From Xanthobacter flavus (GTDB taxonomy: Bacteria; Pseudomonadota; Alphaproteobacteria; Rhizobiales; Xanthobacteraceae): DNA of 64,000 nt. Numbering within the stretch: position 1 is the first letter of the stretch; each line of letters opens with the position of its first letter. The translations under genes and the position numbers were made by a program. The notes under the pieces are model-generated. The model was not told the origin of the DNA and searched no databases. It saw only the letters and a list, made by a program, of their open reading frames with translations. Location: positions 1,364,001 to 1,428,000 of the forward strand of contig NZ_JAGGML010000001.1 of NCBI RefSeq assembly GCF_017875275.1, in the 5' to 3' direction. Below are positions 17,627-43,937 of this stretch, piece by piece.

Positions 17627-17671
17627 AGTCCCCGGCATTCGCCGCTATAGAGCCCTCCTCCTCGCGAGATG

Positions 17672-17747
17672 CTCCCATCGTCTAGCGGTCTAGGACGTCG
17701 CCCTCTCACGGCGAAAACAGGGGTTCGAGTCCCCTTGGGAGCGCCAT
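17672..17747 (+). tRNA. tRNA-Glu (anticodon CTC)
   Basis: The 76-nt sequence folds as a tRNA. The 7-bp acceptor stem is GCTCCCA (17672-17678) with TGGGAGC (17737-17743), followed by discriminator G and an encoded CCA (17745-17747). The anticodon arm is TCGCC-CTCTCAC-GGCGA, giving anticodon CTC, and the T-loop is GTTCGAG. It closely resembles known tRNA-Glu sequences. Confidence 0.95.
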
Positions 17748-28988: not shown

Positions 28989-30191
<1,203 letters not shown>

Positions 30192-30211: not shown

Positions 30212-30250
30212 AAAAAAGCAGCGGCGAGGGGCCATGCCTCTCGCCGCTGC
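30212..30250 (-). terminator. Rho-independent terminator of the large minus-strand operon
   Basis: A perfect 11-bp stem (30218-30228 with 30240-30250, loop 11 nt) is followed on the minus strand by six T residues (30217-30212). It lies just after the stop of the FMN-reductase gene and just after pcaF on the other strand, where the T-run is poor, so it mainly serves the minus-strand operon. Confidence 0.85.
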
Positions 30251-30278
30251 CGTTTCAGGTTGGTCGTTCCGGATCAGC

Positions 30279-30842
30279 TCAGCGCAGGCGCTCGGTCCAG
30301 GTCGCGAGCGCGGTGAGGAGCTGGCGGATGAAGTCGGCCGTCGCCTCGTCGGTGAGGGCGCCCGAGGCGTCGAACTTGGTCTGCGCGGCGCCGATCATCA
30401 CTTCCGGCTTGTTGAGCGGGAAGGCATTCAGGAACACCAGCATCTGCCGCAACTGATACTGCGCCCGCGCGGTGCCGAGCACGCCCATGCTGGCGCCCAT
30501 GATGGCCACCGGCTTGTTGTCGAACGGCTGGCTCGGCGGGCGCGAGGCCCAGTCGATGGCGTTCTTCAGCACGCCGGGGATGGAGTAATTGTACTCGGGC
30601 GTCACGAACAGGATGGCATCCGCCGCCGCAAGCTGGGCGCGGAAGCGCTCCACCTCCGGCGGATAGCCGGCGAGGCGCACGTCGTCATTGTAGTGCGGCA
30701 GGTCGCCGATTTCGGCCGCCTCGATGGTCATGCCCTCGGGGGCAAGCTCCATGGCTGCCTTGAGGGCCATCGTGTTGTAGGAGCCCTTGCGCAGGCTGCC
30801 GGAAATTCCCACCACCCGGATCGGGCGGGCATCGCTTGCCAT
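30279..30842 (-). CDS. NADPH-dependent FMN reductase family protein
   Basis: The 187-residue flavodoxin-like protein has the FMN-binding signature GISGSLRKGSYN at the N-terminus and FVTPEYNYSIPGVLKNAIDW, typical of NAD(P)H-dependent FMN or azo/chromate reductases. It may recycle flavin for a monooxygenase or reduce quinones formed from hydroxyquinol, which autoxidises readily. AAGGAG precedes the ATG at 30842; the frame beyond has no support. It is the last gene of the minus-strand operon and is followed by a strong terminator. Confidence 0.87.
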   Translation of the reverse strand: MASDARPIRVVGISGSLRKGSYNTMALKAAMELAPEGMTIEAAEIGDLPHYNDDVRLAGYPPEVERFRAQLAAADAILFVTPEYNYSIPGVLKNAIDWASRPPSQPFDNKPVAIMGASMGVLGTARAQYQLRQMLVFLNAFPLNKPEVMIGAAQTKFDASGALTDEATADFIRQLLTALATWTERLR

Positions 30843-30886
30843 AATTCGTCTCCTTGAAACGGGATCGGTCTTCAACCGTTGAACGT

Positions 30887-31174
30887 TCAACCCTGACGGC
30901 GCAGGAAGCCGGTGATGGTCACACGCTCCCAGATGTCCGCCTTCCTGAAGGGGTCGGCCGCGTTGAACGCCTCGACGGCCGCGCGGTCCGGCGCCTCGAT
31001 GAGGAAGAGGCTGCCGATCATCGTGGTTCCATCGTCGGCCACCAGCGGACCGGACATGACGATCTTGACCCCGAGCGCGGAGGTGTCGGACAGGAAGGCC
31101 TTGTGCGCCTCGTAATGGGCGAGGCGGGTGTCGAGCGCGCCGGGGCGGTCGATACCGTGGATGGCGAACAGCAT
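30887..31174 (-). CDS. YciI-like protein
   Basis: The 95-residue protein fits the YciI family: a dimeric ferredoxin-like fold with the conserved FAIHGIDRPGAL start, the His/Asp pair (HYEAHKAFL and SGPLVADDG) and DPFRKADIWERVTI. YciI-like proteins include chloro-muconolactone dehalogenases and decarboxylases that act on muconolactone-type compounds, so a role in ring-cleavage product handling is possible. AGGAG lies about eight bases before the ATG at 31174. It sits 44 bp before the FMN reductase in the same operon. Confidence 0.85.
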   Translation of the reverse strand: MLFAIHGIDRPGALDTRLAHYEAHKAFLSDTSALGVKIVMSGPLVADDGTTMIGSLFLIEAPDRAAVEAFNAADPFRKADIWERVTITGFLRRQG

Positions 31175-31280
31175 CAGAGAGGCTCCTTCACGATCGGGGC
31201 GGCACGCGGCTTGAAAGCCGGTGTCGCCCCGCGCGGTTGATAGCACGCCGGCTTTGCTGGCCGGCGTCGGGGGGTCGAAA

Positions 31281-32279
31281 TCAGTTGGTCTTGGTGGGCG
31301 CCTTGGTGGCCATGGCGGCAGCGTCCGCCCAGCTCGGGCAGGCGCGGGCGTCCAGCGGCACGTCGTAGGGCTGGTAGTTGGAGGCGTTGACCACGGTGGG
31401 CTTCAGCACCACTTCGGTCACGATGGCCTCGTTGCGCAGCGCGCGGATGGCCACCATGGTGCCGATGCAGCCCTGCACGAAGCCGTTGTAGTCGCCCGAG
31501 GCCAGCAGCTTGCCGGCCTTGATGGCGTCCACCGCCTCCTTCGTGCCGTTGATGCCGATGACCTTGGCCTTGCGGTTGGCGCCGTCCAGCGCCTCGATGG
31601 CGCCGATGGCCATGGCGTCGTTGGCGGCCAGCACGCCGTCGATCTGCGGATGGGACTGCATCAGGTTCTCCATCACCTGCAGGCCCTGCAGGCGCTGGTA
31701 GTTCGCCGGCTGGCTGGCGAGCAGCTTCACGTCCTTGTTTTCCTTGATGGCGTCATTGAAGCCGCGCACCCGGTCGATGTTGGTGAGCGAGCCCTTCACG
31801 CCCTCAAGGATCACCACATTGCCCTTGCCGCCCATCTCCTTGAGCAGGTAGCGGCCGGTTTCCAGGCCGAGGCTGTAGTCGTCCGCGCCGACGAAGGCGA
31901 GGAACTTGCCGCCGGCCGAACGGTCGGTGACGTTCACCACCGGAATCTTGGCGTCGTTGATCTGCTCCACCCCGGGCACCATGGCCTTGTAGTCCACCGG
32001 CACGAAGACGATGGCGCTCGGCTTCTTGACGATCACGTCCTCGATCTGGCTGAGCTGCTCGGGGATCGAATCCGGCTTGGTGGGAATGTAGTGCACCACC
32101 TTGGCGCCCATGGACTTCGCCGCCACCTCGGCGCCCACGCGCACGGTCTGGAAATACGGGTTGGTCTGGTTCTTGGTGAAGACAGCGATGGTCTCGTCCG
32201 CGGCGAGTGCGCCGGTGGACAGGAGCGCCACCGGCAGCGCCGCGGCGATGAGCTTGAGGTTCGACTTCAACGTCTTCAT
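31281..32279 (-). CDS. Sugar-type ABC transporter periplasmic binding protein (RbsB-like)
   Basis: The 332-residue protein begins with a clear Sec signal peptide (MKTLKSNLKL, then a hydrophobic core ending in TGALAADET, cleavage likely near residue 26). The rest is a type I periplasmic binding protein of the peripla_BP_4 group (NPYFQTVRVGAEVAAKSMG, GADDYSLGLETGRYL, GVLAANDAMAIGAIEAL). Such proteins bind pentoses, inositols, autoinducer-2 or similar polyols. It is the importer's receptor for the operon whose enzymes end in aromatic ring cleavage, so its ligand may be a non-classical substrate. Confidence 0.9.
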   Translation of the reverse strand: MKTLKSNLKLIAAALPVALLSTGALAADETIAVFTKNQTNPYFQTVRVGAEVAAKSMGAKVVHYIPTKPDSIPEQLSQIEDVIVKKPSAIVFVPVDYKAMVPGVEQINDAKIPVVNVTDRSAGGKFLAFVGADDYSLGLETGRYLLKEMGGKGNVVILEGVKGSLTNIDRVRGFNDAIKENKDVKLLASQPANYQRLQGLQVMENLMQSHPQIDGVLAANDAMAIGAIEALDGANRKAKVIGINGTKEAVDAIKAGKLLASGDYNGFVQGCIGTMVAIRALRNEAIVTEVVLKPTVVNASNYQPYDVPLDARACPSWADAAAMATKAPTKTN

Positions 32280-32329
32280 GGGGGTCTTCCTCCGATTTTT
32301 GATATTTGGCTGGTTACTTCGATGACGCT

Positions 32330-33304
32330 TCAGGACCGCTTGCGGCTGATCATGTCGAGCCACACGGCGAAGACGACGATCACGCCCGTCACCAGAGGCT
32401 GCCAGCTCGCGTTGACCGCGAGCAGGTTCATGCCGTTCAGCACCAGCGTGAGGATGAGCGCGCCGACGAAGGTGCCGAACACGCTGCCCACCCCGCCGAA
32501 CAGCGAAGCGCCTCCGATGAGCACCGCCGCGATGGCCGGCAGCGTCATCGCCTCGCCGATGTCGCCCTCGGCCGAGTTCAGCCGGGCAAGGAAGACGATG
32601 GAGGCGACGCCCGCCATGGCGCCGGAGAAGGCGTAGACGAGGATCAGGCGCCGATCGACCGGGATGCCCGAAAGCCGCGCCGCCACCGGGTTCGCGCCGA
32701 TGGCATAGATCTGCTGCCCCCACACGGTGCGCTGGGCGAAGACGGCACCGGCCACGAGGAAGCCGACCATGAGGTAGACCGGGATCGGGATGCCGAGGAA
32801 ATAGCCCGAGCCGATCTGCCGGAAGCCGGGCGGGAAGCCGTGGATGGTCTCGCCGGCCATGTAATAATAGGTCAGCCCGTGCAGCACCCACAGCATGCCA
32901 TAGGTGGCGATGAAGGAGGGGATGCGCAGCTTCGCTACCATCAGCCCGTTGCAGATGCCGATGGCGCAGCCGCTGGCGAGCCCGGTGAGGGTGCCCAGCG
33001 CCGGCGAGCCGGTGCCCTTGATGACGGTGGCGGCGAGGCAGGCGGACAGCCCGATGTTCGCGCCCACCGAGAGGTCGAGCCCGCCGGTGAGGATCACCAG
33101 CGTCAGCCCCGAGGCGAGGAAGAACAGGAGGCTCGCCTGCCTGAGCACGTTGAGGATGTTGTTGGTGGTGAAGAAGGCATCCGTCGCGACGCTCAGCGCC
33201 ACGCACAGGAGGCCCGCCGCCAGCAGCCGGTAGATCAGCTGCTGCATGTCCTTGGACAGATGGATGCGGGGCGTGCCCGCGGAGATGTCGCCGGCGAGGC
33301 TCAT
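32330..33304 (-). CDS. ABC transporter permease (ribose/simple-sugar type)
   Basis: The 324-residue inner-membrane protein has eight to ten hydrophobic segments and the BPD_transp_2 signature GLDLSVGANIGLSACLAATV, IPSFIATYGMLWVLHGLTYYY and AAVLIGGASLFGGVGSVFG. The ATG at 33304 overlaps the stop of the preceding permease gene (ATGA). With its neighbour it forms the heterodimeric channel of the importer. Confidence 0.9.
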   Translation of the reverse strand: MSLAGDISAGTPRIHLSKDMQQLIYRLLAAGLLCVALSVATDAFFTTNNILNVLRQASLLFFLASGLTLVILTGGLDLSVGANIGLSACLAATVIKGTGSPALGTLTGLASGCAIGICNGLMVAKLRIPSFIATYGMLWVLHGLTYYYMAGETIHGFPPGFRQIGSGYFLGIPIPVYLMVGFLVAGAVFAQRTVWGQQIYAIGANPVAARLSGIPVDRRLILVYAFSGAMAGVASIVFLARLNSAEGDIGEAMTLPAIAAVLIGGASLFGGVGSVFGTFVGALILTLVLNGMNLLAVNASWQPLVTGVIVVFAVWLDMISRKRS

Positions 33305-34266
33305 GACTTCTTGCTCCGCATGCCGTCGAGGAAGAGGGCGAAGATGACGAGGACGCCGATGCAGGCCACCTGCACCGAGGAGGGCACGGCCATGAGGTTC
33401 AGCCCGTTGCGCAGCACGCCGACGGTGAGCACGCCCATGAGGGTGCCGAAGATCCAGCCGTTGCCGCGCTCGAAGGAGGTGCCGCCCAGCGCCACGGCGG
33501 CGATGGCGTCGAACTCCATGCCGATGGCGGCGGTGGGATGGCCGGCATTCATGCGCGCCGTCATCAGGAGCGCCGCGACGCCGGCCATGGCGCCGCCGAG
33601 CATGTAGACGGAGATCAGCAGCCGCCGCCACTTCACACCCGCCAGCGTCAGCGCCTCGCGGTTGCCGCCCAGCGCGCAGATGTAGGTGCCGAAGCGGGTG
33701 TGGTAGAGCAGCACATGGAACAGGGCGTAGAAGCCCGCGCCGATGAGGATGGGGTTCGGGATGCCCGCCACATCGCCGGAATAGACCTGCCGCACGAAGC
33801 GCGGGATGCCCACCACGCTCTGCCCGTCCGAGACGATGAGCGCGAGCCCCTGCGCCGCCCCGAGCGTGCCCAGCGTGGCGACGAAGGGCGGAATGCCCAG
33901 CACCGACACCAGCCAGCCGTTGGCGAGGCCGAAGGCGAGGCCCACGCCCAGCGCTCCGGCGAGCCCGAGCAGCAGCGATTGGGTCGCCACCACGATCAGC
34001 GCCAGCACCAGCGAGGCGAGGGTGAGCACCGCGCCCATGGAGAGGTCCAGCCCCTCCGTCATGATGATGAGCGTCATCGGCAAGGCGAGGAGCAGCAGGA
34101 TCACCGACTGCACCAGGATGTTGGAGATGTTGCCGGCCGTCAGGAAGCCGGGGCTCGCCACCGCGAACAGGACGCCGAGCACGGCGAGCGCCACGGCGAC
34201 GCCGGGCACGGACGGGATGCGCGCCCGTCCGAGGGCAGCGGAGGGGGAGAAGGCATGGTCACTCAT
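33301..34266 (-). CDS. ABC transporter permease (ribose/simple-sugar type)
   Basis: The 321-residue polytopic protein carries the same family signatures: TEGLDLSMGAVLTLASLV, GIPPFVATLGTLGAAQGLAL and AAVALGGTSFERGNGWIFG. The ATG at 34266 lies inside the end of the upstream ATPase gene, an eight-base overlap, so translation is coupled. A longer upstream frame overlaps the ATPase and is rejected. Two distinct permeases imply a heterodimeric channel. Confidence 0.9.
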   Translation of the reverse strand: MSDHAFSPSAALGRARIPSVPGVAVALAVLGVLFAVASPGFLTAGNISNILVQSVILLLLALPMTLIIMTEGLDLSMGAVLTLASLVLALIVVATQSLLLGLAGALGVGLAFGLANGWLVSVLGIPPFVATLGTLGAAQGLALIVSDGQSVVGIPRFVRQVYSGDVAGIPNPILIGAGFYALFHVLLYHTRFGTYICALGGNREALTLAGVKWRRLLISVYMLGGAMAGVAALLMTARMNAGHPTAAIGMEFDAIAAVALGGTSFERGNGWIFGTLMGVLTVGVLRNGLNLMAVPSSVQVACIGVLVIFALFLDGMRSKKS

Positions 34267-35809
34267 CGTGCATCCCCATTCGGACGATGTTCTCTTCGGA
34301 GAGGTCGGCGCGGCCGAGTTCGCCGACGATGCGCTTGCCGCGCATGACGTAGGCGCGGTCGCAGACATGGACGATCTCCGCCTGCTCGGAGGAGATCATG
34401 AGCACCGCCGCCCCTTCGGCGACCAATTGGTCGATCAGGGCGAAGATCTCGGATTTCGCGCCCACGTCGATGCCGCGGGTGGGCTCGTCGAAGATGAACA
34501 GGCGCGTGCCGGCGGCGAGCCACTTGCCGATCACCACCTTCTGCTGGTTGCCGCCGGAGAGGACGGCGACGCTCTGGTTCGGCGAGGGGGTGGCGATGCG
34601 CAGGCGCTGGATCATCTCCTGCGCCGAACGCCGCGCCTTGCCGGGGGAGAACATGTTGCTGGGGAAGAGCTTCGGCAGGCCGGCCACGGCGAGGTTGTCG
34701 CTGACCGTGCGGATGAGCGCGAGGCCTTCCGCCTTCCGGCTCTCCGGGATGAGGCCGACGCCGGCGAAGGCGGTGGCGTCCGGCCCGCCGGTCCTCGGCC
34801 TGCCGAAGATGTGCACCTCGCCCGCCGTCACCGGATCGGCGCCGAAGATCGCGCGCGCCACCTCCGTGCGGCCCGAGCCGACGAGGCCGCACAGGCCGAC
34901 GATCTCGCCGGCGCGCACCTTCAGGTCGATGTCGCGGATGCCGTTGGTGGAGGAAAGGCCCCTGGTCTCCAGCACCACCCCGCCAGGCTCAGTGGCGAAG
35001 CGGCGGGGATAGGACATGTCCACGTTGCGACCGACCATCATCCGCACCAGTTCGTCCGGCGAGGTCTCGCCGGGCAGCGCGCGGCCCACCAGCTTGCCGT
35101 CGCGCAGCACGGTGATGCGGTCGCCGAGGGCGAACACCTCGGCCATGCGGTGGGAGATGTAGACGAGGGCGACGCCCTTCGCCTGCAGCTGGCGCATCAC
35201 CTCGAACAGCCGCTCGGTCTCGCGGTCGGACAGCGCGGCGGTGGGCTCGTCCATGACGAGGATGCGGGCATCCTGCGACAGTGCCTTGCCGATCTCCACC
35301 ATCTGCTGCTGGGCGACGCCGAGCTGGTGCACCTTGGTGCGCGGGTCCACATCGAGGCCGATGAGATCCAGCACCTTCTGTGCCTCGCGATAGAGGCGGC
35401 GGCGATCCATCAGGCCTGGAATGCGCGAGGGGAACTCGCGGCCGAGGAAGATGTTCTGCGCCACGTCCAGATAGGGGACGAGGGAGAACTCCTGGAAGAT
35501 CACCGCGATGCCGAAGCGCCGCGCATCGGCGGGGGAGCGGATCTCCACCCTCTCGCCGTTGTGGAAGTATTCGCCCGCATCGGCCTGATAGGCGCCGCAG
35601 AGCACCTTCATGAGCGAAGACTTGCCGGCGCCGTTCTCGCCGAGGAGCATGTGGACCTCGCCCGGCCACACGGCGAAGGATACGTCGTCCAGCGCCTTCA
35701 CGCCCGGGAAGGTCTTGGAGATGCCCTTCAGCTCCAGGATGGGGGTGGCGGGCACGGCCGGGGGCGCGGCCAGTTCGAGGCGAGGCGTCGTTGCCATGAC
35801 CGCCCTCAT
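34259..35809 (-). CDS. ABC transporter ATPase with two nucleotide-binding domains (RbsA/MglA type)
   Basis: The 516-residue protein has two NBDs. The first (about 25-250) has Walker A GENGAGKS, signature LGVAQQQMVEIGKALS and Walker B ILVMDEPTAALS. The second (about 275-510) has a degenerate P-loop (GLVGSGRTEVARAIFG), signature LSGGNQQKVVIGKWL and Walker B LFIFDEPTRGID. This is the pattern of sugar importers such as RbsA. The ATG at 35809 has AAGGAG upstream and overlaps the stop of the FAD-oxidase gene by four bases. Confidence 0.92.
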   Translation of the reverse strand: MRAVMATTPRLELAAPPAVPATPILELKGISKTFPGVKALDDVSFAVWPGEVHMLLGENGAGKSSLMKVLCGAYQADAGEYFHNGERVEIRSPADARRFGIAVIFQEFSLVPYLDVAQNIFLGREFPSRIPGLMDRRRLYREAQKVLDLIGLDVDPRTKVHQLGVAQQQMVEIGKALSQDARILVMDEPTAALSDRETERLFEVMRQLQAKGVALVYISHRMAEVFALGDRITVLRDGKLVGRALPGETSPDELVRMMVGRNVDMSYPRRFATEPGGVVLETRGLSSTNGIRDIDLKVRAGEIVGLCGLVGSGRTEVARAIFGADPVTAGEVHIFGRPRTGGPDATAFAGVGLIPESRKAEGLALIRTVSDNLAVAGLPKLFPSNMFSPGKARRSAQEMIQRLRIATPSPNQSVAVLSGGNQQKVVIGKWLAAGTRLFIFDEPTRGIDVGAKSEIFALIDQLVAEGAAVLMISSEQAEIVHVCDRAYVMRGKRIVGELGRADLSEENIVRMGMHDE

Positions 35810-37230
35810 GGTGCGTCTCCTTGCTGTGTGTCGCGGGGCCGGAAGATCTTGCCGGGATTGAGAATGCCGTCGGGATCGAGGGCGCCCTTCACGAGGCGCA
35901 TCACGTCCACCGCGTCGCCCAGTTCGAGGGGCAGGAAATCCATCTTGCCGAAGCCGATGCCGTGCTCGCCGGTGCAGGTGCCTTCCAGCGCGATGGCGCG
36001 GCGGGCGAGGCGGTCGCAGAAGGCCTTGGCGCGGGCGAGTTCCTCGGCGCTGGCGGGATCGATCAGCACCAGAAGGTGGAAATTGCCGTCGCCCACATGG
36101 CCCACCACCGGGGCGGTGAGGCCGCTTTCCGCGATATCCGCCGCCGTCTCCACCAGGCATTCGGCGAGGCGGGAGATGGGCACGCACACGTCGGTGATCA
36201 TCGCCTTCGCCCCGGGGCGCAGGGCGAGGCCGGCGTAAAGCGTGTTGTCGCGGGCATGCCAGAGGCGGCTGCGCTCCTCCGGCGTCGTCGCCCACTGGAA
36301 GCCCTCGCCGCCGAACTCGGCCGCCAGCGCCTGCGTGGTCTCCGCCTGCTCGGCCACATAGGCCTTGGAGCCGTGGAACTCGAAGAAAAGATGCGGCACC
36401 TCGGGCAGGCCGAGCTTGGCGTGCAAATTCATGCCGCGCATCATCACCGCGTCGAGCAGCTCCACCCGCGCCACCGGCACGCCGGACTGGATGACGGCGA
36501 TGGCCGTGTCCACCGCGGCTTTCAGATCCGGGAAGGCGCAGACGGCGGAGGAGATGGCCTCCGGCTGCGGATGCAGCTTCAGCGTCACCTGAGTGATGAC
36601 GCCGAGCGTGCCCTCGGCGCCCACGAACAGGCGGGTGAGATCGTAGCCGGCGGCGGACTTGCGCGCCCGCTGCGCGGTGCGGATGACGCGGCCGTCGGCC
36701 AGCACCACTTCCAGCGCCAGAACATTGTCCTTCATGGTGCCGTAGCGCACCGCCATGGTGCCCGAGGCGCGGGTGGAGGTCATGCCGCCGATGGAGGCGT
36801 CGGCGCCGGGATCGATGGGGAAGAAGAGGCCCGTATCACGCAGCTGGGCGTTGAGCTGCTTGCGGGTGATGCCGGGCTGGACGGTGACGTCCATGTCCTC
36901 CGCATTCACCCTGAGCACCCCATTCATCCGCCCCATGTCGAGGGAGACGCCGCCGTGGAGTGCCGCCGCATTGCCCTCCAGCGAGGTGCCCGCGCCGAAT
37001 GCGACCACCGGCAGCCTCAGCTCGCGGCACAGGCGCACGACCGCCTGCACCTCGGCGGTGGTTTCGGGAAACACCACCACGTCCGGCGGTGTCGCCGCAT
37101 GGTAGGCCTCGCTGCGGCCGTGGTCGGCGAGCACGCCGGGGGCGCGGGTGGCCCGTTCCCCGACGATCTCGGCGAGCCGTGCCAGGACGCCATCCATGGG
37201 ATGCGCTGCGATGGGCATATGGGCAGACAT
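35806..37230 (-). CDS. FAD-linked oxidase (GlcD/D-lactate dehydrogenase type)
   Basis: The 474-residue VAO-family flavoprotein has the N-terminal FAD-binding domain (VAFGAGTSLEGNAAAL, IDPGADASIGGMTSTRASGT, GYDLTRLFVGAEGTLGVIT) and the C-terminal FAD-oxidase domain with GHVGDGNFHLLVLID and GTCTGEHGIGFGK. Relatives oxidise glycolate, D-lactate or D-2-hydroxyglutarate. Its place between the importer and the ring-cleavage dioxygenase suggests it oxidises a hydroxyl group of the imported compound or a hydroxyacid side chain. GGAGG precedes the start. It overlaps the ABC ATPase gene. Confidence 0.88.
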   Translation of the reverse strand: MSAHMPIAAHPMDGVLARLAEIVGERATRAPGVLADHGRSEAYHAATPPDVVVFPETTAEVQAVVRLCRELRLPVVAFGAGTSLEGNAAALHGGVSLDMGRMNGVLRVNAEDMDVTVQPGITRKQLNAQLRDTGLFFPIDPGADASIGGMTSTRASGTMAVRYGTMKDNVLALEVVLADGRVIRTAQRARKSAAGYDLTRLFVGAEGTLGVITQVTLKLHPQPEAISSAVCAFPDLKAAVDTAIAVIQSGVPVARVELLDAVMMRGMNLHAKLGLPEVPHLFFEFHGSKAYVAEQAETTQALAAEFGGEGFQWATTPEERSRLWHARDNTLYAGLALRPGAKAMITDVCVPISRLAECLVETAADIAESGLTAPVVGHVGDGNFHLLVLIDPASAEELARAKAFCDRLARRAIALEGTCTGEHGIGFGKMDFLPLELGDAVDVMRLVKGALDPDGILNPGKIFRPRDTQQGDAP

Positions 37231-37287
37231 GCGTTCCTCCCTCCGCGCGTCCCGTTGTCCGGGCTTGCTGCGCGTCTGTCCGTCCCG

Positions 37288-38169
37288 TTACGCCGCCTGC
37301 GAAGCCGCGGCGGATACGGGGTTGAGCTTGAAATCGTAGGTCAGCGCGCACCACGGCGCGTCCATCGCCCGGCCGTCCGGCGCGGTGCCCGGCGCATGGG
37401 CGATGAAGTCGCGGATGAGCGAATCCTTCACCCCAAACACCGCGTCGCTGTCGAGATAGGTGTCGCCGGCGACGAACACATGGGTCACGAGCTTCTCGTG
37501 GCCGGGTGCCTCGATCATGAAATGCACATGGGCCGGCCGCCAGGGATGACGCCCCTGCGCCTCCAGCATCTTGCCCACCGGCCCGTCGTGCGGAATGGGA
37601 TAGGCGGCGGGCTTGATGGACCAGAAGGCGAACCGGCCCTGATCGTCCGTGCGCAGGCGGGCGCGGGCGACGAGGCCGTCGTCCTCGTGCTGCACGTCGT
37701 AATAGCCGTCCACGTCCGAGTGCCAGACATCGACGATGGCGTTCGCGAGCGGCGTGCCGTCCAACGTCGCGACCGAGCCGGAGACGAACATGGGTTCGCC
37801 TTCCAGATGCCCGGAAATATCCGTGCCGTTCGCCACCTCCGGCGGGCCGTCCACATAGAAGGGACCGAGCACGGTGCTCTCGGTGACCGCCGTCTGGTGA
37901 TCGTGGTTGATGGCGTCCACCAGCATGGAGACGCCGAGCGTGTCCGACAGCAGGATGAACTCCTGCCGCGTGCCGGTGCACATGTGGCCGGTATCGGTGA
38001 GGAAGCCGATGCCCTTCTCCCATTCCGCCTGGGTGGGGCGCACCTCGCGGATGAAATTGTGCAGGTGGCGCACGAGCGCCTCGCTGATCTCGCGGACGCG
38101 GGCATCAGGCGCGTTGGCGACGCGCTCCAGCACCGCCTCGGTGATGGAAAACTGGTCGAAATTCCTCAT
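37288..38169 (-). CDS. Intradiol dioxygenase, hydroxyquinol 1,2-dioxygenase type
   Basis: The 293-residue protein has the N-terminal helical dimerisation domain and the catalytic domain of catechol/hydroxyquinol 1,2-dioxygenases. Iron ligands are Tyr156 or Tyr157 (DGYYDVQ), Tyr190 (AAYPIPHDG), His214 and His216 (RPAHVHF). The LGPFYVDGPPE segment is typical of the family. Together with maleylacetate reductase in the same operon it is best read as hydroxyquinol (1,2,4-benzenetriol) dioxygenase, giving maleylacetate. The ATG overlaps the upstream dehydrogenase stop (ATGA). Catechol 1,2-dioxygenase is the alternative. Confidence 0.88.
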   Translation of the reverse strand: MRNFDQFSITEAVLERVANAPDARVREISEALVRHLHNFIREVRPTQAEWEKGIGFLTDTGHMCTGTRQEFILLSDTLGVSMLVDAINHDHQTAVTESTVLGPFYVDGPPEVANGTDISGHLEGEPMFVSGSVATLDGTPLANAIVDVWHSDVDGYYDVQHEDDGLVARARLRTDDQGRFAFWSIKPAAYPIPHDGPVGKMLEAQGRHPWRPAHVHFMIEAPGHEKLVTHVFVAGDTYLDSDAVFGVKDSLIRDFIAHAPGTAPDGRAMDAPWCALTYDFKLNPVSAAASQAA

Positions 38170-39083
38170 GCGAGCCTCCCGTCATTCTTGTCGAGATCCG
38201 GCTCGCCCAGTCCGGCGAGCCATTCGGCAAGGCGGACCGGTGCAATGAAGTCCGCCTCCCCCTCGCCGCGCCCGATGAGCGCGCCGTAGATCTCCCGCGT
38301 GAGCGTGGCGAGGGGCATGGCCATCTCGGCGGCGTGGCCGGCCCCGACGATGAGGTCGAGGTCCTTGGCCATCTGCCGGCAGGAGAAAGTGGAATTGAAG
38401 TCGCGCGTCTCCAGGCTCTTGGCCTTGTAGTGGACCATCGGCGAGCCCACCGCGCTGTTGGTGAGCACGTCGAGGATGTCCTGCCAGGCGAGGTTGCCCT
38501 TGCGGGCGAGCACGATGCTCTCGCCCATCATGGCGGCCGAGACGGCGATCATCAGGTTCACGGAGAGCTTGGCGTAGCGCGCCTCCTCCTGCGTGCCGAG
38601 ATACTTCTGCGCGCGGGTGAAGTCCTGCGCCACGGGCAGGAAGGTGTCGAAGGCCGCGCGGGGGCCGGAGACGAAGCAGGTGAGGTTGCCGGTGTGGGCA
38701 ATCGCGGCATTGCCGGAGACCGGCGCGCGCAGATAGGCGATGCCGGCGCTTTCCGCCACCTGCGCCACCTCGGCGGAGATGCCGGGACTCACGGTGGAGG
38801 TCTCCACCAGGATCGCGCCCTTGCGCATGGCGGAGAGCAGCGGCCCGTCCAACGCCACGGCGCGCAGCGCCCGGTCGTCCGGCAGCGAGGTGAAGACCAT
38901 ATCGCGGCCGGCCGCCTCTTCCAGCGTCGCGGCCGGGGTGACGCCACCGGCGGCGGCCTCGGCGATGCGCTCCTGATCGCGGTCGAAGCCGGCGATGTCG
39001 CGGCCCGCGCCGGCGAGGCGGGTGGAGATGGGCAGGCCCATCTTGCCAAGCCCGATCCAGCCGAGGGTCAAAGTGTCAGCCAT
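38166..39083 (-). CDS. NAD(P)-dependent beta-hydroxyacid dehydrogenase (3-hydroxyisobutyrate dehydrogenase family)
   Basis: The 305-residue protein has the Rossmann motif GWIGLGKMGLPISTRLAGAG and the family blocks FTSLPDDRAL, VETSTVSPG, LRAPVSGNAA and the catalytic lysine segment YAKLSVNLMIA. Substrates in this family are 3-hydroxyacids such as hydroxyisobutyrate, tartronate semialdehyde or 6-phosphogluconate. AGGAG sits six bases before the ATG at 39083. It overlaps the dioxygenase gene. In context it may oxidise or reduce an intermediate before ring cleavage. Confidence 0.86.
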   Translation of the reverse strand: MADTLTLGWIGLGKMGLPISTRLAGAGRDIAGFDRDQERIAEAAAGGVTPAATLEEAAGRDMVFTSLPDDRALRAVALDGPLLSAMRKGAILVETSTVSPGISAEVAQVAESAGIAYLRAPVSGNAAIAHTGNLTCFVSGPRAAFDTFLPVAQDFTRAQKYLGTQEEARYAKLSVNLMIAVSAAMMGESIVLARKGNLAWQDILDVLTNSAVGSPMVHYKAKSLETRDFNSTFSCRQMAKDLDLIVGAGHAAEMAMPLATLTREIYGALIGRGEGEADFIAPVRLAEWLAGLGEPDLDKNDGRLA

Positions 39084-39093
39084 CATCCTCTCC

Positions 39094-40458
39094 TCACGCC
39101 GCCTTTTTGCCGAGGCCGAGCTCATCGACGATGCGCGTGCCCGAGGCGGTAAGCCGGGCGAGCTTCTCGTCGAGGCCGGTGGCGAGCAGCGTCCTGTTCT
39201 TCTTCATGAAACGACCGGCGATCATCACCGCCTCCACGTCGCCGCGCCCCGCCTGCATCACCACGGTGGCGACGGGATCATGCACCGGCTGGAGATGCAG
39301 CGCGCGGGCGTCGATCAGGACGAGGTCCGCCTGCTTGCCGGGGGCGAGGGAGCCGATGCGGGCGTCGAGGCCCAGCATCCGCGCGCCCTCGATGGTGATC
39401 CATTCCAGCGCCTGCCGAACCCGCACCGTGGACGTGGGCGGAATGGCGCCGGTGTCGCGGCGGCTGTCCGTATTGTCGAGCACCCGCTGCATGCCGAGGG
39501 CGATGCGCGCGACGCCCATCATGTCGCCGGCCAGCACGCTTTCCAGATCGACCCCGAGGGACGGCGCCGCGCCGCGCTTCAGCAGGCGGCCGGTGACGGG
39601 GAAGCCGTGGCCCTGCGTCATCTCGTTTTCCGGCGTCACCGAGAAGGAGGCGCCGAGGTCCACGAGGCGGGAGAACAGCTCGTCCGAAAGGTCGTTGCCG
39701 TGGACAACGTTGATGCCGGGGCCGACCAGCCCCTCGGCGATCAGCGTCTCCCAGCCGCCCGGCGTCTTCGCCGCGCCGCCGCCCTGGTGCATGGAGGCGA
39801 CGAGGCCGAATTCGCGGGCGAGCCTGAAATCGGCGCGCGCGACCTCCATGGTCGAATAATGTGGGCCGAGAATGGCGAGGCCCAGCGTCAGCAGCCCGTC
39901 GTCGCTGGCGAACGGGCCGCGCCGCAGCCGCTCGATCTCGGCGCGCGGATGCGGCACTTCGGAGAAATGCGGCTCGCCTGGCTTGGCATCGGGCTTCGGC
40001 GAGCCGTGGAAGAAGGCAGCGCGGATGCCGCTTTCGGCCAGGGCCTCCACCGCCGCGTCGGTGTGGTCGGGCGTCGGGTTGTTGTGGCACCAGTCCACCA
40101 GCGTGGTGGTGCCGGCATCGATCTGGCCGAGCGCGCCCACAAGGGTGGCAATACCGATGTCGTCGGGGCGGAAGCGGGTGGCAAGGCCCGCGTGGACCCA
40201 GCGGAAATATTCCAGCAGCGTCCAGTCGGCGGCGAGGCTCCTTAGCCCCGTCTGCCAGGTATGCATATGCGCATTCACGAAGCCGGGCACGCAGATGCGG
40301 CCCTTCGCGTCCACCTGCTCGGCGTCCGCCGCCTCGATGCGCGGGGCGATGGCGGCGATGCGGCCATCCGCGATCAGGATGTCGCCCGTCTTGAGGTCGC
40401 CGATGGCCGGCTCCATCGAGAGGATGGTGGCGCCACAGATGAGGGTGCGCGCGCCCAT
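39094..40458 (-). CDS. Amidohydrolase (guanine deaminase/triazine hydrolase-like)
   Basis: The 454-residue TIM-barrel metalloenzyme has metal ligands His64 and His66 (NAHMHTWQ), His224 (SMHQGG), His253 (VVHGNDL) and Asp304 (GVDLES), the subtype III set, plus the C-terminal APGKQADLVLID. The Glu of the HxxE motif that shuttles protons in most deaminases of this group is not present after His224 (HQGG), so the reaction may be hydrolysis rather than simple deamination, or the proton carrier lies elsewhere. It overlaps maleylacetate reductase (ATGA), so it belongs to the catabolic operon; the substrate is unknown. Confidence 0.85.
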   Translation of the reverse strand: MGARTLICGATILSMEPAIGDLKTGDILIADGRIAAIAPRIEAADAEQVDAKGRICVPGFVNAHMHTWQTGLRSLAADWTLLEYFRWVHAGLATRFRPDDIGIATLVGALGQIDAGTTTLVDWCHNNPTPDHTDAAVEALAESGIRAAFFHGSPKPDAKPGEPHFSEVPHPRAEIERLRRGPFASDDGLLTLGLAILGPHYSTMEVARADFRLAREFGLVASMHQGGGAAKTPGGWETLIAEGLVGPGINVVHGNDLSDELFSRLVDLGASFSVTPENEMTQGHGFPVTGRLLKRGAAPSLGVDLESVLAGDMMGVARIALGMQRVLDNTDSRRDTGAIPPTSTVRVRQALEWITIEGARMLGLDARIGSLAPGKQADLVLIDARALHLQPVHDPVATVVMQAGRGDVEAVMIAGRFMKKNRTLLATGLDEKLARLTASGTRIVDELGLGKKAA

Positions 40459-41546
40459 CAGGCCGCCTCCTCCGCGGGCACCGCCGCCACCGGCCGCTCG
40501 CCCGAATAGGCGCGGGCGATGAGGTCGCGGATGCCGTCGCGCGTCACGGGGCGCGGGTTCCAGTAGGGGTTTTCCACGGCGAGGTCGGCAGCCGTCTCGA
40601 TGCCGTCCGCCGGCATTCCGATGTCGCAGAGCGCGCGCGGCACGCCGAGCGCCCGCACCAGATCGAACAGCCCCTGCGCCGCATCCGGCGCGCCCAGCGC
40701 GCGGGTGATGGCCGCCATGGCCTCCGGCGCGGCGGGGGCGTTGTAGGCCACCGCGTGGGGGAGAACGATGGTGTGCGTCTCCGCGTGGGGCAGGTTGAAG
40801 GTGCCGCCGAGCGTGTGGCAGAGCTTGTGGTGCAGCGCCATGCCCACCGCGCCGAGGCAGCAGCCGCACAGCCACGCGCCATAGAGCGCCATCGTGCGGG
40901 CCTCGATATTCGCCGGCTCGTGGATGAGGATGGGCAGCGCGGAGGAGAGGGTGCGGATGCCGTCCTCCGCCATCAGCGAGATCACAGGATTGCGGTCCCG
41001 CGCATAGAGCGCCTCCACCGCATGGGCGATGGCGTTGACGCCGGAGGTGGCGGAGAGGCCGGGCGGAAGGGTGAGCGTCAGATCCACGTCGTAGATGACC
41101 ACCTCGGGCAGCACGTCCAGCGAGCGGATGGTGGTCTTGCGCCCCTCCTGCGTCTCACCGAGGATGGGCGTCATCTCCGAACCCGCATAGGTGGTGGGAA
41201 TGACGAGCTGCGGCACCCCGGTGCGCAGCGCCAGCGCCTTGCCGAGGCCGGTGGTGGAGCCGCCGCCCAGCGCCACGACGCAATCGGCGTCGGCAGCCTT
41301 CAGCGCGGCGAGCGCCTTGTCCGTCACCTCCACCGGGGTGTGCATGGTGGCGCCGGGAAAGACCCCCGCGCAGGCTTCACCGATGAGCCCGCCGATGCGC
41401 TCGCCCTCCCCCGCCTGCTGCGGCGTGGTGAGCACCAGCGCCCGCCGCGCGCCGAGCCGCGCCACCTCGGCACCGACCTCGGCGACGGTGCCGCGGCCGA
41501 AGCGGACGCGGATGGGCAGGGCCTCGTAGGTGAAGGTCTCGATCAT
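40458..41546 (-). CDS. Maleylacetate reductase
   Basis: The 362-residue protein belongs to the iron-type alcohol dehydrogenase superfamily in its maleylacetate reductase branch: GGGSTTGLGKALAL for NADH binding, PTTYAGSEMTPI, and the metal-site-equivalent residues in ALHHKLCHTLGG and LPHAETHTIVLPHAVAYN. It reduces maleylacetate to 3-oxoadipate, the substrate of PcaIJ encoded at 27.6-29.0 kb. Its presence fixes the direction of the whole operon as hydroxyquinol-type ring cleavage. Confidence 0.92.
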   Translation of the reverse strand: MIETFTYEALPIRVRFGRGTVAEVGAEVARLGARRALVLTTPQQAGEGERIGGLIGEACAGVFPGATMHTPVEVTDKALAALKAADADCVVALGGGSTTGLGKALALRTGVPQLVIPTTYAGSEMTPILGETQEGRKTTIRSLDVLPEVVIYDVDLTLTLPPGLSATSGVNAIAHAVEALYARDRNPVISLMAEDGIRTLSSALPILIHEPANIEARTMALYGAWLCGCCLGAVGMALHHKLCHTLGGTFNLPHAETHTIVLPHAVAYNAPAAPEAMAAITRALGAPDAAQGLFDLVRALGVPRALCDIGMPADGIETAADLAVENPYWNPRPVTRDGIRDLIARAYSGERPVAAVPAEEAA

Positions 41547-41588
41547 GGTTCAGATCCGTCTGCGGCGCGCACGGGCGCGCCTTGGGGC

Positions 41589-41984
41589 TCACTCGCCGGC
41601 GAGAAGCGCGTCGCGCGGACGCGGCGCCGCAGCGGCGGCGGGCGCACGGGCCTCGATGGCGCCGAACGCCGCGTCCTCGGCCACATAATCCACTTGGAAG
41701 CGGGCGATGCGCAGGTTCGCCAGCTCCTGCCGGACACGCAGATGCTCGGGATGGGAGGCGTAGGCGGCGAGATCGGCGGCGGTGGCGAACTCGGTCACCA
41801 GCACCACGTCGCAGGCATAATCCACATCGGAGATGTCGAGACCGATCTCCACGCGGGTCATGCCGGCGACGCGGCCGCGCAGGCCCTCGAACGCGGCCTT
41901 GACCTTCTGGCGGGCGGCGGCGCGCTCCTCGCGCGTGTCTCCGCTGACCCGCCACATCACGATGTGCCGGATGGGTCCCATCAT
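41589..41984 (-). CDS. Dabb (stress-responsive alpha/beta-barrel) domain protein
   Basis: The 131-residue protein has the Dabb fold (PIRHIVMWRVSGDTREE, EIGLDISDVDYACDVVLVTEF, AAYASHPEHLRVRQEL), a small dimeric ferredoxin-like barrel, with an Ala/Pro-rich C-terminal tail. Dabb proteins include small cyclases and decarboxylases such as olivetolic acid cyclase, so it could act on a cyclic intermediate; this is inference. It is the first gene of the minus-strand catabolic operon, divergent from the LysR gene, with GAGGAAAA upstream of the start. Confidence 0.85.
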   Translation of the reverse strand: MMGPIRHIVMWRVSGDTREERAAARQKVKAAFEGLRGRVAGMTRVEIGLDISDVDYACDVVLVTEFATAADLAAYASHPEHLRVRQELANLRIARFQVDYVAEDAAFGAIEARAPAAAAAPRPRDALLAGE

Positions 41985-42032
41985 TGGCGTTTTCCTCGAC
42001 CTATTGGTCTTTCGTTGGATGTGAGTTTTGAC

Positions 42033-42092
42033 TTGCGCGCAGCGGAAATAAACGGGATTTTTCGGAACTGTCTTTTGCGCAAAGTGGAAATA
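42033..42092. promoter_or_regulatory. Two 18-bp direct repeats in the LysR/catabolic operon intergenic region
   Basis: TTGCGCGCAGCGGAAATA at 42033-42050 and TTGCGCAAAGTGGAAATA at 42075-42092 match at 15 of 18 positions and are exactly 42 bp (four helical turns) apart. The second copy includes the palindrome TTTGCGCAAA and ends on the LysR start codon. This is a likely operator for the LysR protein. Confidence 0.55.
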
Positions 42093-43006
42093 TGGATCGC
42101 CTGACCCAGATCGAGGTGTTCGTGAAGACCGCCGAGCTGCGCAGCCTGTCGCGTGCGGCGGAGGCGCTGGGCATGTCCAACGCGGCGGCGAGCCGGCATC
42201 TCGCGGCGCTGGAGGAGCGGCTCTCCGCCCGCCTCATCGAGCGCAACACCCGCCGCCTGTGGCTGACCGAGGCGGGGCAGGAATTCTACCAGCGCAGCGG
42301 CACGCTCCTCACCGAACTGGCCGAAGCCGAAGAGGCGGTGAACGAGCATACCCTCGCCCCGCAGGGCCTGCTGCGGGTGACAAGCTCGCTCTCGTTCGCC
42401 ACCATCTATCTCGCGCCCATGCTGCCGCAGTTCCGCAAGCTCTATCCCAAGCTCAACGTGCATATCGCGGTGGCCAACCGCTATCTCGACTTCATCGAGG
42501 CGGGCATCGACGTCGCCATCCGCACCCGCCTGCACGAGCCCGACACCAACATCATCGTGCGCCGGCTCGGACGGATGCGGCGGGTGCTGGCCGCCTCGCC
42601 GGCCTATCTGGAGGAGCACGGCCGCCCGCGTGAGCCGGCCGACCTCACGCGACACGACATGCTGGTCTACAATCTCGCGCAGGACCCCTTCTCCCTGCGC
42701 CTCACGAAAGGCGACGCGGAGCGTACCGTGCGCATCACCGGCGCGCTGGACTGCAACGACGGGCAGGTGATCCGGCAGGCCGCCCTCTCGGGGCTCGGCA
42801 TCCTCATCCAGCCGCTCTACATCGTGCAGGACGACCTCGCGTCCGGGCGGCTCGTGGCCGTGATGCAGGACTGGCAGCTGCCCATGCTGACCATGAACAT
42901 CGCCTACCAGAACCGCGAGCGCCTGCCGGCCAAGATCCGCGTGTTCACCGACTATCTCGTCAATTACGTGCGGCAGGCCTCGAGCGCCGGCATCTGGTCC
43001 GCCTGA
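42092..43006 (+). CDS. LysR-family transcriptional regulator
   Basis: The 304-residue regulator has an N-terminal winged HTH (about 1-60, FVKTAELRSLSRAAEALGMSNAAASRHLAALE) and a LysR substrate-binding domain (about 90-300). It is of the CrgA/PecT-like branch. It is transcribed divergently from the 12-gene importer/ring-cleavage operon, with 107 bp between starts, so it very likely controls that operon and itself. Repeats that may be its operator lie just before its start codon. Confidence 0.92.
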   Translation: MDRLTQIEVFVKTAELRSLSRAAEALGMSNAAASRHLAALEERLSARLIERNTRRLWLTEAGQEFYQRSGTLLTELAEAEEAVNEHTLAPQGLLRVTSSLSFATIYLAPMLPQFRKLYPKLNVHIAVANRYLDFIEAGIDVAIRTRLHEPDTNIIVRRLGRMRRVLAASPAYLEEHGRPREPADLTRHDMLVYNLAQDPFSLRLTKGDAERTVRITGALDCNDGQVIRQAALSGLGILIQPLYIVQDDLASGRLVAVMQDWQLPMLTMNIAYQNRERLPAKIRVFTDYLVNYVRQASSAGIWSA

Positions 43007-43408: not shown

Positions 43409-43935
43409 TCACTCCGGCGCGTCGATGAGCGGATCGGGCCGGGCGAAGGCGGCGAGCGCGGGGCGATCTGCGAGGGTGATGACGGCGCCCCGGCTCGTCA
43501 CGCCGTGGGTCTTCAGCACGGCGAAGGCGCGGGAAAGGTGCTCCGGCGTCATGCCCGGGAGCGACGACAGCACCCGTTTCTCGAACGGCAGGGGGATGCG
43601 GTCCGCGCCCTCCCCATCGGCGCGCTGGAGCAGCCAGTTGGCGAGCCGCTCGGCCCCCGTGCGCAGCTTCTGGCCTTTCACCTCCTTCACCGCACGGCGA
43701 TAGCCGCGGCCAGCTCGGTGACGACGGCGCGGGTGAAGGCCGGGTCGGTGCCCAGCGCGTCGCGCACCTTTTCCGCCGGGATCATCAGCACCTGCGATTT
43801 CTTGAGGGTGCGGGCGGACTGGAGATAGATGCGCGCGTTGAGCACCGCGGCGAGAATGAAGGTGCCCACCGGCGGAAAGCGCTGAAGAAAGGCCGTGCGC
43901 ACCAGTTCCGCGAAGGTCTCCTCGCGGGCGCGCCC
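43409..43935 (-). pseudogene. Crp/Fnr-family regulator, 5'-truncated and frameshifted
   Basis: The minus strand encodes the end of a cNMP-binding domain (TFAELVRTAFLQRF, then LQSARTLKKSQVLMIPAEKV) in one frame until a stop near 43687, and the HTH domain (QKLRTGAERLANWLL, LPFEKRVLSSLPGMTPEHLS) in another frame down to the stop at 43409. Shifting one base near 43706 joins them smoothly, so a single-base deletion is likely. The N-terminal half of the sensor domain is missing: homology stops near 43930, where narK homology starts on the opposite strand. The HTH resembles nitrate/NO-type regulators of the FNR superfamily. Confidence 0.78.
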
Positions 43936-43937
43936 TT

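Follow-up and report, generated by a model that had tools for sequence, protein, structure and literature searches.

A hydroxyquinol-cleavage operon with a sugar-type ABC importer in Xanthobacter flavus and its relatives, and a possible route to it from alicyclic polyols

Introduction

Degraders of resorcinol and resorcylate, of p-nitrophenol and of 2,4,5-trichlorophenol share a lower pathway in which hydroxyquinol 1,2-dioxygenase (HQD) and maleylacetate reductase (MAR) take hydroxyquinol through maleylacetate to 3-oxoadipate. Operons that encode it are generally interpreted as serving the breakdown of pollutants or of phenols from lignin. Here we describe a twelve-gene operon of Xanthobacter flavus that has this lower half in common with the known systems and differs from them in the remainder: it includes no ring hydroxylase gene, and encodes instead a sugar-type ABC importer (CUT2), a protein of amidohydrolase fold (AmiH), an FAD-linked oxidase of the D-2-hydroxyacid dehydrogenase type (FADox) and a beta-hydroxyacid dehydrogenase (HIBADH). 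The operon lies in a stretch of 64,000 nucleotides, hereafter the window, that covers bases 1364001-1428000 of a single-contig genome of 5.35 Mb; all positions below are those of the window. It is a relative of the hydroxyquinol pathway that is widespread in Bradyrhizobium and its kin, and we did not find it described in the literature searched.

Two other described systems offer parallels to the upper half of the operon. The catabolism of myo-inositol (iol) uses CUT2-type uptake in many organisms, and relatives of our operon resemble it in their Gfo/Idh and IolM-like dehydrogenases and xylose-isomerase-like barrels; the difference is that the route proposed here leads to an aromatic product, opened by a dioxygenase where the iol pathway employs a TPP hydrolase. 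The conversion of quinate and shikimate to protocatechuate is the textbook bacterial dehydration of an alicyclic polyol to an aromatic ring. It is echoed by the type II dehydroquinase genes found in or beside the operons of two relatives (L098 and L113), whereas the product considered here, hydroxyquinol, has no carboxyl group and would enter the maleylacetate/3-oxoadipate route rather than protocatechuate 3,4-cleavage.

An earlier reading of the window (the original prediction) had proposed that the substrate may be a polyol-like or nitrogen-containing ring, such as a cyclitol, aminocyclitol or glycoside. From a comparison with related loci we propose that the operon imports a polyhydroxylated alicyclic compound, of the cyclitol, deoxy- or aminocyclitol or C7 carbasugar class, and converts it to hydroxyquinol by oxidation and elimination of water, without ring hydroxylation; we place the probability of this a little below even. 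If it holds for many of the operons in Bradyrhizobium, Bosea and Xanthobacter, their annotation and the ecology derived from it would change, a new substrate would be added to carbon exchange in root nodules and soil, and the AmiH subfamily and the Dabb and YciI proteins would acquire a testable role.

Results and discussion

The lower half of the pathway

The twelve genes run co-directionally on the minus strand from 41984 down to 30279, in the transcription order Dabb, MAR, AmiH, HIBADH, HQD, FADox, CUT2 ATPase, permease, permease, binding protein, YciI and FMN reductase. HQD (37288-38169) carries both catechol-dioxygenase domains, N and C (PF04444, PF00775), and its nearest solved relative is a hydroxyquinol 1,2-dioxygenase (1tmx, at 325 bits; the best catechol enzyme reaches 135 bits). 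Residues Y157, Y190, H214 and H216, which we take to be the iron ligands, are invariant in 15 aligned rows. MAR (40458-41546) is a member of the iron-containing alcohol dehydrogenase family (PF25137/PF00465), and relatives of it encoded in these operons in other genomes are annotated as maleylacetate reductase.

On the plus strand, pcaI (27577-28299), pcaJ (28296-28979) and pcaF (28989-30191) converge on the operon terminator. Their products, 3-oxoadipate CoA-transferase A and B and 3-oxoadipyl-CoA thiolase, all exceed the NCBI curated cut-offs (TIGR02429, 345.9 bits against 128.5; TIGR02428, 305.7 against 243.55; TIGR02430, 689.6 against 597). Homologues of pcaIJ from the same clusters as those of the window lie 3' of MAR in L072 and L065, and the Skermanella locus L005 has a BKACE gene, annotated as a 3-keto-5-aminohexanoate cleavage protein; BKACE acts on 3-oxoadipate. 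Because pcaIJ follow MAR, or a BKACE is present, in some relatives, 3-oxoadipate fits as the end product. Going by these family assignments, the lower half is a normal hydroxyquinol pathway, in line with the original prediction, which had paired hydroxyquinol-type ring cleavage with PcaIJF next door.

It is scarcely probable at all that the dioxygenase and the reductase act on another trihydroxybenzene or on a substituted ring, hydroxyquinol not being an intermediate. The assignment comes from sequence, and the family does include a 6-chlorohydroxyquinol enzyme (8r2x); but catechol and chlorocatechol enzymes fall far behind 1tmx in score, and the reductase and the PcaIJF neighbours fit maleylacetate and 3-oxoadipate. 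The anaerobic phloroglucinol pathway (reductase, cyclohydrolase, BKACE), brought to mind by the BKACE of some relatives, was rejected since it is not known to use an intradiol dioxygenase. A second kind of HQD gene occurs in L037, L084 and L222 with homologues of SDR, BKACE (DUF849-like) and zinc alcohol dehydrogenase, and in L222 a CUT2 operon diverges from it.

A conserved gene set

A scan for AmiH, with one genome per species, gave 465 relatives; counts out of 80 refer to the best 80 of these 465 loci. The eleven genes from Dabb to YciI are contiguous, co-directional and in the same order in 55 of the 80, by a rule that rests on our own gene caller and with some of the 25 failing loci being cut contigs; a LysR gene diverges from them in all 55. 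The conserved cassette is found in Bradyrhizobium, Bosea, Xanthobacter and Azorhizobium, and the window and both Bosea plasmid loci likewise keep the eleven-gene order. The AmiH of the window is 94% identical to that of Xanthobacter aminoxidans and 93% to that of Xanthobacter sp. YC-JY1. Among 398 genomes drawn from the phylum, AmiH is present at E <= 1e-100 in eight, all labelled as belonging to the family of the window, and an HQD match lies within 1 kb of it in all eight (the match in G384 is partial, at 185 of 289 positions). HQD at E <= 1e-70 occurs in 43 of the 398 phylum genomes and, within the order, in 121 of 397. The original prediction had suggested looking for the set in other genomes, and there it recurs as an ordered unit: it is no single-genome accident, and the strict gene order ties the sugar importer to the aromatic genes.

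The surroundings of the cassette vary. A LacI-type instead of a LysR-type regulator gene precedes it in L024, L031, L037 and L049 (Tardiphaga, Bradyrhizobium); regulators of this type mostly respond to sugars. In Bradyrhizobium (L020, L021, L027, L028 and others) the LysR gene of the cassette often has as its neighbour another sugar-type ABC operon, which includes a xylulokinase gene; the xylulokinase of L088 is over the TIGR01312 cut-off. The contig JAUEPE010000002.1 (L060), titled Frankia sp. RB7, carries a full Bradyrhizobium-type cassette and the flanking families F20, F24 and F18, otherwise seen in Bradyrhizobium loci; this assembly is probably misnamed or contaminated.

Relatives with other upper-half enzymes

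Six informative loci keep the frame of the operon and change its enzymes, and a monooxygenase profile finds no match in any of these six stretches. L185, from another family of the same order, has AmiH, HIBADH, HQD, a CUT2 importer, YciI and a Gfo/Idh dehydrogenase, with no FADox called. The nearest solved relative of this Gfo/Idh protein is scyllo-inositol dehydrogenase (E 1.3e-23, near-tied with an unnamed oxidoreductase); of the NCBIfam models, inositol 2-dehydrogenase fits it best, with 98.8 bits where the cut-off is 355. L036 (Mesorhizobium) combines AmiH, HQD, YciI and Gfo/Idh with, by reading, an SDR and a protein of fumarylacetoacetate-hydrolase fold; no HIBADH was called. In L113, on a plasmid of Paraburkholderia largidicola, a zinc dehydrogenase and a type II dehydroquinase stand in place of AmiH and FADox, together with a CUT2 importer, HIBADH (PF03446, PF14833), YciI, HQD and MAR. 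The zinc dehydrogenase has scyllo-inosose 3-dehydrogenase as its best model (192 bits, cut-off 450), and the dehydroquinase is over two subfamily cut-offs and under the aroQ equivalog cut-off.

L205 encodes CUT2 components, two SDRs, two zinc dehydrogenases, YciI, Gfo/Idh, MAR, HQD and HIBADH; L173 has HQD, a xylose-isomerase-like barrel (PF01261), Gfo/Idh, CUT2 genes of weak similarity, Dabb and MAR. L098, on a plasmid of S. meliloti Rm41, has an HQD 60.8% identical to that of the window, along with a type II dehydroquinase, MAR, a sugar-acid-dehydratase-like enolase, a SnoaL-like protein, a xylose-isomerase-like barrel and an FAD enzyme of the ketosteroid-dehydrogenase kind, ring-desaturase-like, with 4-oxocyclohexane- and 4-oxocyclohexene-carboxylate dehydrogenases among its relatives. 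Since the six loci exchange these enzymes, it is dehydrogenase and lyase folds that occupy the places of FADox and AmiH.

The importer

The CUT2 importer is complete. It comprises an RbsA-type ATPase with two ABC domains (34259-35809; PF00005 in two stretches, with AraG, xylose and RbsA as best models, all below cut-off), two BPD_transp_2 permeases (33301-34266 and 32330-33304; PF02653) and one RbsB-like periplasmic binding protein (31281-32279; PF13407). Importers of this type usually carry sugars and polyols. Against the ribose models the importer scores 168.4 bits for RbsB (cut-off 337) and 484.8 bits for RbsA (cut-off 745). At the positions of D215 and Q235 of RbsB, presumably residues of the ribose pocket, the binding protein has Asn in 75 of 78 and Tyr in 73 of 78 sequences. 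Because it is RbsB-like yet changed at these positions, its pocket would be of sugar type without being a ribose pocket, and a plain RbsABC ribose operon was rejected on the missed curated scores and the altered pocket.

The importer genes sit between FADox and YciI, a place kept in 55 of the 80 loci, and the ATPase gene overlaps its neighbours by 4 and 8 bp. This arrangement argues against an importer that serves an ordinary sugar and is merely co-located, as do the changed pocket positions in nearly all relatives; despite the likeness of the binding protein to RbsB, we regard such a chance association as highly improbable.

The amidohydrolase

AmiH (39094-40458) belongs to PRK08204 (NF006056, 617.7 bits, cut-off 391), and its AlphaFold model (pLDDT 88.2, pTM 0.91) has AtzA as best fold match (E 8.3e-33). 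Fold and metal ligands are common to AmiH and the AtzA/TRZ-type amidohydrolases, the ligands H64, H66, H224, H253 and D304 being kept in 87 of 87 aligned rows; the catalytic glutamate of the HxxE motif, in contrast, is replaced by glycine (Gly in 86 rows, Met in one, Glu in none). In the deaminase/chlorohydrolase family this glutamate shuttles protons. Since it is missing in all 87 rows, simple deamination is not the natural reading, and the role of deaminase or chlorohydrolase was set aside except within the aromatic-substrate alternative discussed below. The nitrogen-containing ring of the original prediction, for which AmiH alone speaks, is for the same reason weaker than the cyclitol idea. 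Also among the fold matches are TrzN entries named E241Q mutants, E241 being, we assume, the same glutamate, and AHS (6sj0), which we take to be a benzoxazole-forming enzyme. By analogy, AHS is a lead towards an AmiH fold capable of condensation chemistry.

Other amidohydrolases of this kind occur apart from the cassette. In the Variovorax locus L006 the gene for a PRK08204-like amidohydrolase overlaps a GMC oxidoreductase gene, with no HQD listed nearby; together with two loci described below (L008 and L009), this makes amidohydrolase and oxidoreductase a recurrent overlapping gene couple. Contigs of Acidobacteria-type metagenome-assembled genomes (L018, L023, L045, L055) encode an amidohydrolase 65-69% identical to the AmiH of the window. 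In L018 and L023 it lies amid glycosyltransferase-like and asparagine synthase-like genes, with no dioxygenase called, and in L018 a HIBADH-family gene adjoins it, so that the enzyme pair may work in another pathway there.

The oxidoreductases and the small proteins

The nearest solved enzyme to FADox (35806-37230; GlcD-like, 335.5 bits, cut-off 567.9) is the mitochondrial D-lactate dehydrogenase 8jdc, at 535.8 bits, and because of this closeness its substrate may be a hydroxy acid. HIBADH (38166-39086) finds its best model in tartronate-semialdehyde reductase (TIGR01505, 155.4 bits, below the cut-off of 340.75). The first gene of the operon encodes a stress-responsive A/B barrel (Dabb) protein (41589-41984; PF07876, 71.9 bits), and the last a flavoprotein resembling NAD(P)H:FMN/quinone reductases (30279-30842; PF03358, 156.7 bits), whose family occurs in 5 of the 80 loci.

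For YciI (30887-31174; PF03795), eight solved chains match at E <= 0.1, and TftG alone falls below 0.001 (4lbh, E 7.8e-10). TftG is 5-chloro-2-hydroxyhydroquinone dehydrochlorinase. H24 and D9 of YciI are identical in 83 of 83 rows, TftG included, and TftG is reported to need a His-Asp dyad (PMC7641849). The 2,4,5-trichlorophenol (tft) pathway has both a YciI-family eliminase and a hydroxybenzoquinone reductase: TftG gives hydroxybenzoquinone, and the reductase then leads to benzenetriol (PMC3975901). The YciI protein of the operon thus resembles a TftG-type eliminase, as a putative activity.

These enzymes can be read in another way, with a substrate that is already aromatic or quinonoid. A hydroxyquinol masked by conjugation, amination or in some other way would be imported by the CUT2 system and unmasked by AmiH through hydrolysis or deamination, and the oxidases would trim a hydroxy-acid side chain. 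The AtzA/deaminase fold of AmiH and its five metal ligands suit such a role, and the affinities of FADox with D-2-hydroxyacid dehydrogenases and of HIBADH with tartronate-semialdehyde reductase suit such a side chain; the solved relative of YciI, too, has a substituted hydroxyquinol as its substrate. Moreover, in Shinella (L008) and in Burkholderia anthina (L009) the gene of a distant AmiH relative (51% and 47% identity, respectively) overlaps an FAD_binding_3 monooxygenase gene, which means that the AmiH subfamily can belong to aromatic pathways; no dioxygenase of HQD kind is among the listed neighbours of either. Set against all this are the loss of the HxxE glutamate throughout the AmiH rows, the sugar- and cyclitol-type enzymes that stand in place of AmiH, FADox or both in several relatives, and the usual cargo of CUT2 importers. 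On balance we consider a masked aromatic substrate unlikely.

Ring hydroxylases

No FAD_binding_3 enzyme is encoded in the 64-kb window, other hydroxylase folds not having been searched for genome-wide. The original prediction had stressed the lack of a ring hydroxylase; for FAD_binding_3 enzymes this holds across the window, but the neighbourhoods of some relatives do contain an FAD monooxygenase. One lies within about 10 kb at 14 of the 72 genome loci that combine AmiH with HQD, or at 20 counting weak hits, and B. vaviloviae has two monooxygenases upstream of the cassette. The 14 strong cases form family F16, all from Bradyrhizobium and on the opposite strand; the member scanned exceeds the PRK06126 cut-off, and most are accompanied by a short gene of a family annotated as MarR in B. 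vaviloviae. At 52 of the 72 loci there is no monooxygenase match of any strength. The genome of the window itself has six FAD_binding_3 matches, all outside the window. Over alignments of at least 200 residues these are at most 33% identical to hydroxylases of HQD loci or to F16, apart from one protein that is 39.9% identical to a B. vaviloviae enzyme.

Such enzymes could point to a hydroxylase, encoded at another place in the genome, that forms hydroxyquinol from a simple phenol, the operon being an ordinary lower pathway joined to an unrelated sugar-acid module. The monooxygenases near some cassettes and the six proteins of this genome, the 39.9% match in particular, are what this explanation has in its favour. 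The low identity of the other five, the position of the Bradyrhizobium enzyme on the opposite strand by a MarR-like gene, the many loci with no match and the intactness of the eleven-gene unit tell against it, as does the absence of HIBADH from hydroxylase loci reported next, and we find it rather improbable.

To the window we added 60 stretches around HQD matches of the phylum and order scans, hand-picked so as to favour high scores and different genera. HQD was present in the gene calling of 59 of the 61, and L210 and L227 were dropped. Genes were labelled by BLAST to annotated proteins of plasmid loci, and some by reading, so that the counts are approximate; the p-values are generous because the genomes are related. 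By BLAST labels an FAD ring hydroxylase lies near HQD in 19 of the 59 loci (20 by profile). Branched-chain-type ABC importers (HAAT) occur in 16 of these 19 against 13 of the other 40 (p = 2.5e-4), which, in this hand-picked sample, contradicts the premise of the original prediction that aromatic substrates usually come with MFS or TRAP uptake. HIBADH is found in none of the 19 hydroxylase loci and in 7 of the 40 others (p = 0.085), YciI in 1 and 10, respectively (p = 0.085). The two go together: YciI is present in all seven HIBADH loci against 4 of the remaining 52 (p = 1e-6).

An IQ-TREE phylogeny of 88 HQDs places that of the window in a starred clade (100/98) with 31 rows, of which 14 are labelled HIBADH/YciI, 12 other, 4 hydroxylase and 1 both. 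The 'other' rows of this clade include the dehydroquinase and barrel loci L098, L100, L101, L171, L182 and L213. Over the whole tree the HIBADH/YciI label requires 14 changes, gains and losses pooled, and no fewer than 13 are imposed by the starred branches alone. These genes have thus come together with HQDs of several lineages, which argues that HIBADH and YciI serve hydroxyquinol chemistry and are no frozen accident. A single origin of the association was rejected on this tree, in which several sugar-type loci stand among the 'other' rows.

A proposed route and its weighing

In the proposed route an alicyclic polyol would be taken up through the CUT2 importer, and FADox and the HIBADH-family enzyme would turn alcohol groups of the ring (or of a side chain) into ketones. 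On the ketone AmiH may then act as a lyase or hydrolase, and the TftG-like YciI, perhaps with Dabb, would perform the last elimination and so aromatize the ring to hydroxyquinol or 2-hydroxybenzoquinone; where present, the FMN reductase would reduce the quinone. From their enzyme families, the dioxygenase would give maleylacetate, the reductase 3-oxoadipate, and PcaIJF succinyl-CoA and acetyl-CoA. Balances drawn up by hand close without O2: deoxyinosose (C6H10O5) less two H2O equals hydroxyquinol (C6H6O3), and inosose (C6H10O6) less three H2O equals hydroxybenzoquinone (C6H4O3). Chemical precedent exists: according to a review, inosose is dehydrated by acid to 1,2,3,4-tetrahydroxybenzene, and 1,2,4-trihydroxybenzene can be prepared chemically from myo-inositol in several steps (PMC11467972). 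No biological route from a cyclitol to hydroxyquinol was found among the papers listed by the literature searches, which covered few subscription papers and are no proof of absence from print; nor was a description of the upper half of the pathway found there.

Of the substrates put forward in the original prediction, the polyol or cyclitol is favoured by the comparison, that is, by hydroxylase-free relatives with sugar importers, inositol-type dehydrogenases and dehydratase folds, although the matches stay below the curated inositol cut-offs. The aryl glycoside is without support, since the operon encodes no glycosidase. The cyclitol idea is the best-supported reading, somewhat short of an even chance, and the glycoside and the nitrogen ring have less in their favour. 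Benzoxazinoids, mycosporines, mimosine and coumarins were also considered as substrates and rejected, since no gene supports their degradation.

Several observations weigh against the cyclitol reading, beginning with the monooxygenases near some cassettes and upstream of that of B. vaviloviae, and with the aromatic company of the amidohydrolases of L008 and L009. The matches to Gfo/Idh and IolM-like models are, as sequence scores, far below the model cut-offs. No Gfo/Idh enzyme, polyol dehydrogenase or known sugar dehydratase is encoded in the window itself, where functional stand-ins are proposed for these steps, and cyclitol enzymes appear in some relatives only as distant homologues. A lyase role for AmiH would follow by analogy of position only, and the likeness of FADox to D-lactate dehydrogenase would suit a hydroxy acid, not a ring alcohol. 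IolD has eight matches in the genome of the window, none over the cut-off; this absence fits a different cyclitol route, and would equally fit an organism that uses no inositol.

The survey of HQD loci adds further points on the same side. Neither the HIBADH nor the YciI contrast is significant alone, and the markers of sugar-type chemistry (CUT2, Gfo/Idh, TIM barrel, dehydroquinase or MDR) occur in 3 of the 19 hydroxylase loci against 10 of the 40 others, which is no significant depletion (p = 0.52); some of the marker matches, at L189, L190 and L208, belong to a second importer cluster adjoining the HQD locus. Because this broad depletion is not significant, it is the HIBADH-YciI pair and single loci that carry the claim. 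Three of the seven HIBADH loci (the window, L185, L205) have a clear CUT2 importer. The others show a HAAT importer (L186), a TRAP system (L174) and another ABC set (L226), L194 being a short contig. Finally, a hydroxylase label and sugar-type, HIBADH and YciI markers are all lacking in 24 of the 59 loci.

On a wider view, bacteria associated with plants and soil might aromatize carbohydrate-like rings (cyclitols, deoxy- or aminocyclitols, or carbasugars) to hydroxyquinol through oxidation and successive losses of water, and complete their breakdown by aromatic ring cleavage. Such a route would have been put together on several occasions, each time from other dehydrogenases and lyases, and in the version of the window the AmiH fold would have been recruited as a lyase. 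We hold this generalization tentatively, at clearly less than an even chance.

Operon boundaries and neighbouring features

The original prediction described twelve minus-strand genes with overlaps, ended by a strong terminator and headed by a divergent LysR gene, and gene order and strand are as it claimed. Its span of 30279-43006 is right in its start; the twelve genes stop at 41984, and it is the divergent LysR gene that ends at 43006. Overlaps occur at five joints (MAR/AmiH, 1 bp; HIBADH/HQD, 4 bp; FADox/ATPase, 4 bp; ATPase/permease, 8 bp; permease/permease, 4 bp), and the six remaining intergenic gaps measure 7 to 106 bp. Gene starts were picked from ribosome-binding sites and gene calling, and for eight genes they are shorter than the longest open reading frames: the chosen starts are 30842 (FMN reductase), 31174 (YciI), 32279 (binding protein), 33304 and 34266 (permeases), 35809 (ATPase), 39086 (HIBADH) and 40458 (AmiH).

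The intrinsic terminator, on the operon strand at about 30212-30251, consists of a long G+C stem followed by six U, with a fold z of -5.0 against 200 shuffles. A simple terminator scanner did not list it, and found four terminator-like sites in the region against a shuffle mean of 4.6. At the other end, the LysR-type regulator gene (42092-43006, plus strand; PF00126 and PF03466) is separated from Dabb by a divergent promoter/operator gap of 107 bp (41985-42091). This gap measures 106-108 bp in 55 of the 62 loci with a LysR-Dabb pair, and conserved blocks run across 18 aligned gaps; by a strict test no palindromic T-N11-A LysR box was found in the gaps of these 18 loci.

Beyond the regulator, at 43409-44263, lie apparent remnants of nitrate respiration, in which, by reading, the end of a Crp/Fnr-type regulator-like open reading frame and the start of a NarK-type transporter-like one are merged with unrelated sequence. 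The sole tRNA gene of the window, tRNA-Glu (ctc), is at 17671-17746.

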